Shown: one piece after another, positions 6,088-8,057 of the stretch
Numbering within the stretch: position 1 is the stretch's first letter
Layout: each line of letters begins with the position of its first letter
DNA from: Candidatus Zhuqueibacterota bacterium
GTDB lineage: Bacteria > SM23-31
DNA: 13,254 bases
Direction of reading: 5' to 3'
Assembly: GCA_022562855.1 (NCBI GenBank)
Contig: JADFON010000019.1
Span: 1-13,254 of the forward strand
Position numbers and translations under genes: made by a program
The notes under the pieces: model-generated
The model's database searches: none
Seen by the model: the letters and a program-made list of their open reading frames with translations, nothing else
Told to the model about the DNA's origin: nothing

Positions 6088-6342
6088 TTATACTGTAATG
6101 TTAATACTGATACCTAGACTTTTTTGCAATTTAACCGCGGCTTTACCAAGTGTTCGGAAATCAAGATTATTAAAGCTCCTGATATTTTGAACAAACTCCC
6201 CATAAGTAACGGCTCCGCTGAATTGAATTCCTAATCGACTCGGTTCACGGTTTGGGATTTGCGGTCTTACCGGTCTTACAGGCTTGTTGGAAGATAAAAA
6301 GGTAAGAGGACGAAAACTTCCGATTTTTTGACTAGATGGCAT
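6088..6342 (-). CDS. Hypothetical 84-residue proline/arginine-rich protein
   Basis: I do not recognise this family. The N-terminal half (1-40) is basic and rich in Pro, Arg and Ser (KPVRPVRPQIPNREP at about 20-34), and looks disordered. The C-terminal half (about 41-84) looks folded, with an amphipathic helix around DFRTLGKAAVKLQKSLG and a final hydrophobic strand, ISINITV. There is no signal peptide or membrane segment. A good promoter lies about 48 bp upstream of its ATG, so it is the first gene of a two-gene transcript with the TauE-like permease. It ends 15 nt before the permease start in the same frame. No Shine-Dalgarno is seen. The leading promoter and coding-like composition support a real gene, but confidence is moderate. 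Confidence 0.6.
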   Translation of the reverse strand: MPSSQKIGSFRPLTFLSSNKPVRPVRPQIPNREPSRLGIQFSGAVTYGEFVQNIRSFNNLDFRTLGKAAVKLQKSLGISINITV

Positions 6343-7101: not shown

Positions 7102-7518
7102 TTATGACTTCTTGTCATCGTCTTTATTCTCTTCTGATTCTGGTTCAGCAATAAGCAAATTTATTTCCCTGATCAACCGGTTGATTTTTACCGGTTTCGC
7201 TATAAAAATGCGTACACCAAGACTATAAAGATCTTTTATTCTTATTTCATTTAGACTGGATGATAACATAATCACTGGAATATTTCTAATTTTGAATTGG
7301 ATTTTTTCAAGGAACTCCTGTCCGTTTAATTTGGGCATTTGATAATCTGTTATAATCAGGGCAATTTCATCATCGAAATCTTTGATAAATTTTATAGCAT
7401 CAACAGGATTAGAAGATAATATACAATTGTACTTTTTTTCAAGACGTTTCAAAAGTAATAATCTAATTGGTTTTGTATCATCGAGAATTAATATTGTCTT
7501 TTTATCAGACTTCTCCAT
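7102..7518 (-). CDS. Single-domain CheY-like response regulator (receiver)
   Basis: This encodes 138 residues with one receiver domain and no output domain. Key residues are visible: the acidic pair Asp13-Asp14 (ILDDTKP), the phospho-acceptor Asp58 in ITDYQMPKLNG, the switch serine in MLSSS (about 87), and the conserved Lys108 in IAKPV. It should be phosphorylated by a histidine kinase and act by binding a partner protein. The last 15 or so residues are a charged tail (EPESEENKDDDKKS), unlike CheY, which ends at the last helix. No kinase is nearby. It is divergent to a gene encoding a FliM-type CheY-docking peptide, which makes that protein the prime candidate partner. It lies upstream of the AMMECR1 gene, but co-transcription is uncertain. 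Confidence 0.92.
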   Translation of the reverse strand: MEKSDKKTILILDDTKPIRLLLLKRLEKKYNCILSSNPVDAIKFIKDFDDEIALIITDYQMPKLNGQEFLEKIQFKIRNIPVIMLSSSLNEIRIKDLYSLGVRIFIAKPVKINRLIREINLLIAEPESEENKDDDKKS

Positions 7519-7751
7519 AATTACTACTTATATATTTTTAAAAAATATTTACTTTAAGTTTTACTTCAAGCAAACCATCTTTTATTTAATATTAATTATT
7601 AGTTAATAGTGTATAAACTCTTTCTATATAAGGTTTTATAATAATATGGCTAAAATTTTCCTTTTATTCAAATCAATTAATTATTACCTTCCAATGCAGT
7701 AGCTCGATATCAGAGTAATAAACAATAACAATAATATTTATTGGAGAATAG
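7519..7751. promoter_or_regulatory. Divergent AT-rich regulatory spacer between the CheY-like and FliM-N-like genes
   Basis: This 233-bp spacer is very AT-rich and must hold the promoters of both divergent genes. I see no open frame that looks coding and no clear sigma-28 or sigma-54 flagellar promoter. AT-rich palindromes such as TATTTTTAAAAAATA near 7531-7547 are present but fit the base composition. Only the Shine-Dalgarno GGAG at 7743-7746, before the plus-strand ATG, is clear. Confidence 0.5.
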
Positions 7752-8057
7752 ATGGCGGCGCCACTCAGCCAGGATGAAATCGATGCTTTGCTTGGTGACA
7801 CTGATGCATTAGACGACTCCGATCCCATTGAATTGGAAGCCGATATAGCTGAAGAAGGCTCCCGCAAAACCGGTTCTAAGAATATTGGAATCCGCGAAAC
7901 CAAGCCTTTCCGATTTGATTTTTCTTATAGATCACCCATACTAAAAAGCAATGATTATGTTTTTAATCCAAATTTAGAAGAGAAAATGGAGAATTCTACC
8001 GTAGTAGTCCGCACTATATCAAATTATTCCACCTTCCTTAGAAAAAAGGATAATTAA
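7752..8057 (+). CDS. Small protein with an N-terminal FliM/FliY-type CheY-binding peptide, no switch domain
   Basis: This encodes 101 residues. LSQDEIDALLG (5-15) is essentially identical to the N-terminal CheY-P docking segment of FliM and FliY (LSQxEIDALLNG). Residues 16-50 form an acidic, disordered linker (DTDALDDSDPIELEADIAEE). Residues 51-101 (KPFRFDFSYRSPI, then YVFNPNLEE and VVVRTISNY) may form a small beta-rich unit that I do not recognise. The FliM middle domain and the SpoA/FliN domain are absent, and the gene stops cleanly; the following 200 bp do not encode them in any frame. A good Shine-Dalgarno (GGAG, 5 nt from the ATG) argues for real expression. The divergent neighbour is a CheY-like receiver. 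Possible readings are an adaptor that recruits the phosphorylated receiver, or a decayed fliM remnant. The intact frame favours the former. Confidence 0.72.
   Translation: MAAPLSQDEIDALLGDTDALDDSDPIELEADIAEEGSRKTGSKNIGIRETKPFRFDFSYRSPILKSNDYVFNPNLEEKMENSTVVVRTISNYSTFLRKKDN

Follow-up and report, generated by a model that had tools for sequence, protein, structure and literature searches.

The 13,254-nucleotide window analysed here, from contig 393 of a draft genome (G000, 79.6% complete), encodes a 101-residue protein that, by sequence comparison, is a member of a family specific to candidate phylum SM23-31, in which a known docking arm is carried on a new, phylum-restricted protein. The nearest named relative of this genome is the MAG PL23a_bin.125, which comes from coral skeleton and has been placed in SM23-31 (PMC9868349). 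Two forms of the protein, A and B, are encoded in the phylum, and these small arm proteins are probably accessories in motility signalling, not broken motor genes, because one of the two is apparently co-induced with the flagellar filament. The window gene, a copy A, is open from an ATG start to a stop codon; the reading in the earlier note of LSQDEIDALLG, with an acidic linker after it and a clean stop at the end of the frame, agrees with the sequence, as does its description of an intact frame with a good Shine-Dalgarno element (Table 1). Relatives of the same architecture in all six genomes, with dN below dS, mark the frame as a real gene.

Table 1. Coordinates of the window features and of the gene that follows fliA in three genomes
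Feature	Coordinates	Strand	Basis
Gene for the 101-residue family member, copy A	7752..8057	+	Relatives in 6/6 phylum genomes
Shine-Dalgarno core GGAG, 5 bases 5' of ATG	7743..7746	+	Sequence
FliM-type docking arm, residues 5-15 (LSQDEIDALLG), predicted helix 7-15	7764..7796	+	Sequence, profile alignment, model
Linker, residues 16-50, acidic, variable	7797..7901	+	Mean pairwise identity 17%; model confidence lowest here
Conserved tail, residues 51-101	7902..8054	+	Invariant residues; predicted hairpin 69-71/84-86, helix 89-99
Receiver-domain gene, divergent from copy A	7102..7518	-	PF00072; orthologues found
Unnamed conserved protein after fliA	L200:2938-3252, L201:5068-5388, L203:3373-3741		G000, G002, G004

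Six genomes of SM23-31 (G000-G005) were sampled, and each encodes relatives of similar size and the same plan. The earlier note had asked whether the tail defines a family and whether its members keep the docking peptide; both proved to be the case, with 12 copies in the six genomes, 11 of which retain the peptide. In these 11, an N-terminal arm is joined through a variable linker to a conserved tail of the form Y.SP[VI][IL]K....NP...VV..L.NY. Arm residues Gln7, Glu9, Ile10, Asp11, Leu13, and Leu14 are invariant or nearly so in A1, and Ser61, Pro62, Lys65, Pro73, and Val86 of the tail are invariant in all 12 copies. Five copies are of type A, six are B-type (one each in G000, G001, G002, G004, and G005, plus the single, B-like copy of G003), and one is armless. 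The armless copy, at L020:1429-1644, is one of three family members in G004; it has the tail, a TTG start after GGAGG, and Asp in place of the NP-motif Asn72 that is found in the other 11 copies. The tree splits the copies into A and B across one branch (support 82/91), which suggests that the two groups are products of one old duplication, the evidence being moderate given the long branches. Comparison of the type A genes in G004 and G005 gave a dN of 0.33 and a dS of 1.9 (dN/dS ∼0.17), this dS being high. A search of ∼380 genomes of other phyla with the family profile found no relatives, the matches being only arms of FliM-sized proteins. A mobile or phage gene was ruled out by the lack of any match in phage records, plasmid records, and viral contigs.

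The relationship to FliM is confined to the arm. A Pfam search with the 101-residue protein (threshold E 1) returned no matches; neither the FliM middle domain (PF02154) nor the C-terminal SpoA domain of FliM, FliN, and FliY (PF01052) was found, and the CheY-P phosphatase domains CheC, CheX, and CheZ were matched in neither Pfam nor NCBIfam. NCBIfam gave a weak match of residues 5-27 to the FliM model TIGR01397 (E 0.064). When the family profile was aligned by hhalign with the arm of FliM from the same phylum, residues 1-24 matched with a probability of 93.5 and an E of 2.3e-7; a profile comparison of the same type between the tail and FliM gave a probability of 0.1, which is no alignment. By these alignments the arm shows homology to, or close mimicry of, the FliM arm, and the resemblance is beyond chance. 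Full-length FliM is encoded in all six genomes, after motB-like and fliL-like genes, and each FliM has its own arm, which reads MAEILSQ(K/N)EIDALLSSVS or a near variant. The variant in G003 is MSDILSQKEIDALL in place of MAEILS(Q)(K/N)EIDALL, or MSDILSQKEIDALLSSVS over the longer stretch. FliY is complete in G001, G003, G004, and G005 and has no docking arm there, and the SpoA proteins of the phylum are genes other than the family members. Replacement of a missing FliM arm by a detached one was ruled out, FliM being armed in every genome. A match to FliM restricted to the arm might be expected of a fliM remnant. However, the tail shows no alignment to FliM, the relatives are not full-length FliM proteins, an intact, armed fliM is present in the same genome, and the family has been retained with old paralogues and a low dN/dS; the tail conservation already refutes decay of fliM, to which we assign next to no weight. 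The view in the earlier note of a stand-alone arm protein that lacks a switch domain and is not a decaying fliM is borne out.

The secondary structure of copy A listed in Table 1, in which residues 69-71 and 84-86 are strands, was predicted by AlphaFold from 12 alignment rows (mean pLDDT 72, pTM 0.31), and the same elements were predicted at lower confidence for a B copy that is 26% identical. No PDB entry matched the protein by sequence, or by fold with this low-confidence model. The predicted picture is of a flexible tether joining a helical arm to a small hairpin-helix tail. Pairwise identity averages 0.55 across the arm, falls to 0.17 in the linker, and rises again to 0.36 in the tail; conservation of the two ends while the linker drifts supports an accessory docking role. 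An alternative is that the tail is the working part, acting on some cell component, and that the arm, inherited from the 5' end of a fliM gene, retains only weak function. The armless G004 copy fits this proposal, as do the invariant residues of the tail and the drift of some B arms, but the arm is on average the more conserved part and all copies except one retain it, and we regard a tail-only function as unlikely.

A sigma-28 (FliA)-type promoter motif, TNAA[AG]-N16-CCGATA, is located 47-262 bases ahead of the start codon of the B-type copy in six of six genomes, including the single copy of G003. None of the five A copies has a FliA-type promoter within the 300 bp 5' of its start, and the armless copy also lacks one; in G004 and G005, copy A is instead preceded by TTGACA and TATATT elements, read by eye, at a spacing of 17-18 bases. 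Markov simulation gave ∼0.0009 chance motif matches per 300 bp, and for occurrence at six of the 12 copies P is ∼5e-16, a value that serves as a guide only because the pattern was first spotted in these genes. An independent check is provided by TTAAA-N16-CCGATA, with the same spacing, which lies 5' of flagellin genes in G000, G002, G003, and G004, of flgM-like genes in G000 and G002, and of a fliD-like gene in G002. The fliA gene is itself present and adjoins flhF-flhG, the three being together in G000, G002, and G004 (flgM, fliD, fliA, and flhG were assigned by eye from sequence and neighbours). The presence of the motif on B and its absence from A mean that, as judged by promoter, B is a member of the late flagellar regulon whereas A is not, and copy B appears to be co-expressed with the flagellar filament. 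Because B shares its promoter with flagellin, flgM, and fliD, the family is tied to the flagellar regulon. This argues against the coupling to a non-flagellar output that the earlier note had proposed, and the occurrence in non-flagellated genomes that it had raised was not observed, since every family-bearing genome has flagellin and full-length FliM. None of the family copies adjoins flagellar or canonical che genes. Directly 3' of fliA in the three genomes listed in Table 1 is an unnamed conserved protein of 104-122 residues with the pattern MR.V..Q..H/AQTP.VER..QTR..Q.

The divergent receiver gene was considered as the source of a partner for copy A, which would then be an adaptor coupling that receiver to a non-motor output, as the earlier note had suggested. 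The receiver has the phosphorylation residues, but those that correspond to CheY 92 and 119 are both Glu and that at 106 is Phe; among the four orthologous receivers (G000, G002, G003, and G005), Glu119 and Phe106 are found in all four and Glu92 in three. In Escherichia coli, a salt bridge links Lys119 of CheY to Asp12 of FliM (PMC7012829). The equivalent of Asp12 in the family is Asp11, which is retained in 10 of the 11 arms. Since Glu occupies the position at which Lys119 pairs with Asp12, the receiver is an unlikely docking partner. Its gene and copy A are transcribed divergently in G000 and G002, which represent two genera, and the G005 orthologue comes after an MCP-CheA operon; both arrangements would suit an adaptor. 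Against this, the pairing is absent from G001, G003, G004, and G005, and copy B belongs to the sigma-28 regulon. Together with the receiver residues, these points make such an adaptor improbable. A conserved operon at L172 and L188 (G000, G002) holds antiporter-like, CheW, MCP, and CheA genes, then a glycosyltransferase-like gene, and contains no CheY. Elsewhere in the window, an 84-residue conserved ORF (MPSSQKIGSFRPLTF...; 6088-6342, minus strand) that adjoins a membrane permease gene is strongly alike across two genera, its counterpart being at L021:3516-3770 (minus strand).

The EIDALL motif of FliM and FliY binds CheY-P (PMC9126983; PMC6946799). Canonical CheYs with Lys92, Tyr106, and Lys119 are encoded at G000:C128 (99-458) and G003:C268. 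Because these proteins keep the three residues and the receivers have Glu119, a canonical CheY is the better partner candidate as judged from sequence. The G000 protein, whose best PDB match is the CheY homologue 3gwg (E 1.9e-37), is encoded in a chemotaxis cluster apart from the window locus, near a CheX-CheB-like fusion and a CheD-like partial ORF. In this cluster, the apparent CheX-CheB fusion, of 588 residues and named by eye, lies between two receivers at L225:513-2279 (minus strand).

We tentatively favour, as close to an even call, an SM23-31-specific flagellar or chemotaxis accessory whose arm binds canonical CheY-P and whose tail is tethered elsewhere, competing with FliM or relaying the signal. 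The N-terminal helix would mimic the FliM docking arm and bind the canonical phosphorylated CheY of the cell, most likely the G000:C128 product in the window genome, and the conserved tail would hold the protein to a further component. The protein could compete with FliM for CheY-P, buffering or draining it and thereby tuning the switching of the motor, or could deliver CheY-P to a position next to the switch. Copy B would be produced along with the filament under sigma-28, and production of copy A would involve no sigma-28 promoter. We infer CheY-P binding, competition with FliM, and any tail partner. Docking to CheY-P is supported by homology of the arm to that of FliM in the same genomes, by retention of the arm and of Asp11 across the family, and by the canonical CheY in the chemotaxis cluster of the window genome. 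The B promoter motif, its occurrence before flagellin, flgM, and fliD, and the presence of fliA support a flagellar role. Weighing against this explanation are the lack of any CheW-domain protein in the 90% complete G004 despite its three family members, imperfect B arms (EITALL in G000, TPEEID in G001), the A copies without a flagellar promoter, and the position of all copies away from flagellar and canonical che genes. The protein may act as a decoy or sink. It is possible, though we hold this with some doubt, that SM23-31 as a whole relies on a free-standing, soluble CheY-docking arm, present as two copies under different regulation, which would compete with the flagellar switch for CheY-P or relay CheY-P to it.

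The chief rival to CheY-P docking is that the arm is a ligand of the MinD-like ATPase FlhG and that the protein adjusts how many flagella are made or how the C-ring is assembled, not switching. FlhG binds FliM via the FliM N-terminus (PMC12826062), and the grouping of flhF-flhG-fliA in three genomes is in keeping with such a role. In G004 (90% complete), which has FlhG in addition to its three family members, no CheW-domain protein was found; the family may not need the CheA pathway, with the arm perhaps serving FlhG, or the che genes may be absent from the draft through assembly gaps. However, neither neighbourhood nor fusion connects the family to flhG, and the arm fits the CheY-type consensus equally fully, so that the sequence does not discriminate between the ligands. 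We consider the FlhG reading fairly unlikely. Taken together, the earlier note stands in its identification of a stand-alone arm protein that is not a product of fliM decay, and is not supported in its non-flagellar output and its pairing with the divergent receiver.

If the arm works as it does in FliM, motor sensitivity could be set by a separate, regulated protein, so that the switch and the amount of CheY-P would not be its sole determinants. Having two paralogues, of which one is apparently co-expressed with the filament, would make this idea testable by transfer of the protein to a tractable host, and the family offers a phylum-specific marker and a route to the tail partner. Among open-licence papers, neither a stand-alone FliM arm nor such tuning of the motor response was found described.

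With respect to known systems, the family resembles FliM (TIGR01397/PF02154) in its N-terminal docking arm, the first 14 residues being mostly shared, and in a predicted short helix that follows a few extended residues. Unlike FliM, it has no middle or SpoA domain, is ∼100 residues long as opposed to ∼340, has an unrelated tail, and coexists with full-length FliM. FliY and FliN with an EIDAL motif are likewise non-FliM proteins that may bear the arm (PMC6946799, PMC12826062), but these have a SpoA domain, and FliY also CheC, whereas the family has neither; in this phylum the complete FliY proteins of the four genomes named above lack the arm and the family carries it. FlgM is of similar length (∼100 residues) and in these genomes has a sigma-28-type promoter, as copy B does, but identity with FlgM was ruled out because a separate FlgM-like gene exists, and the family protein matches FlgM in neither Pfam nor NCBIfam. 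The closest analogy of idea is CheF, the archaeal CheY-P adaptor (PMC9126983), which is also a separate adaptor for CheY-P with a second binding part; as described, CheF is set apart by its PH-like domains, its length of ∼350 residues, and its location at the archaellum.
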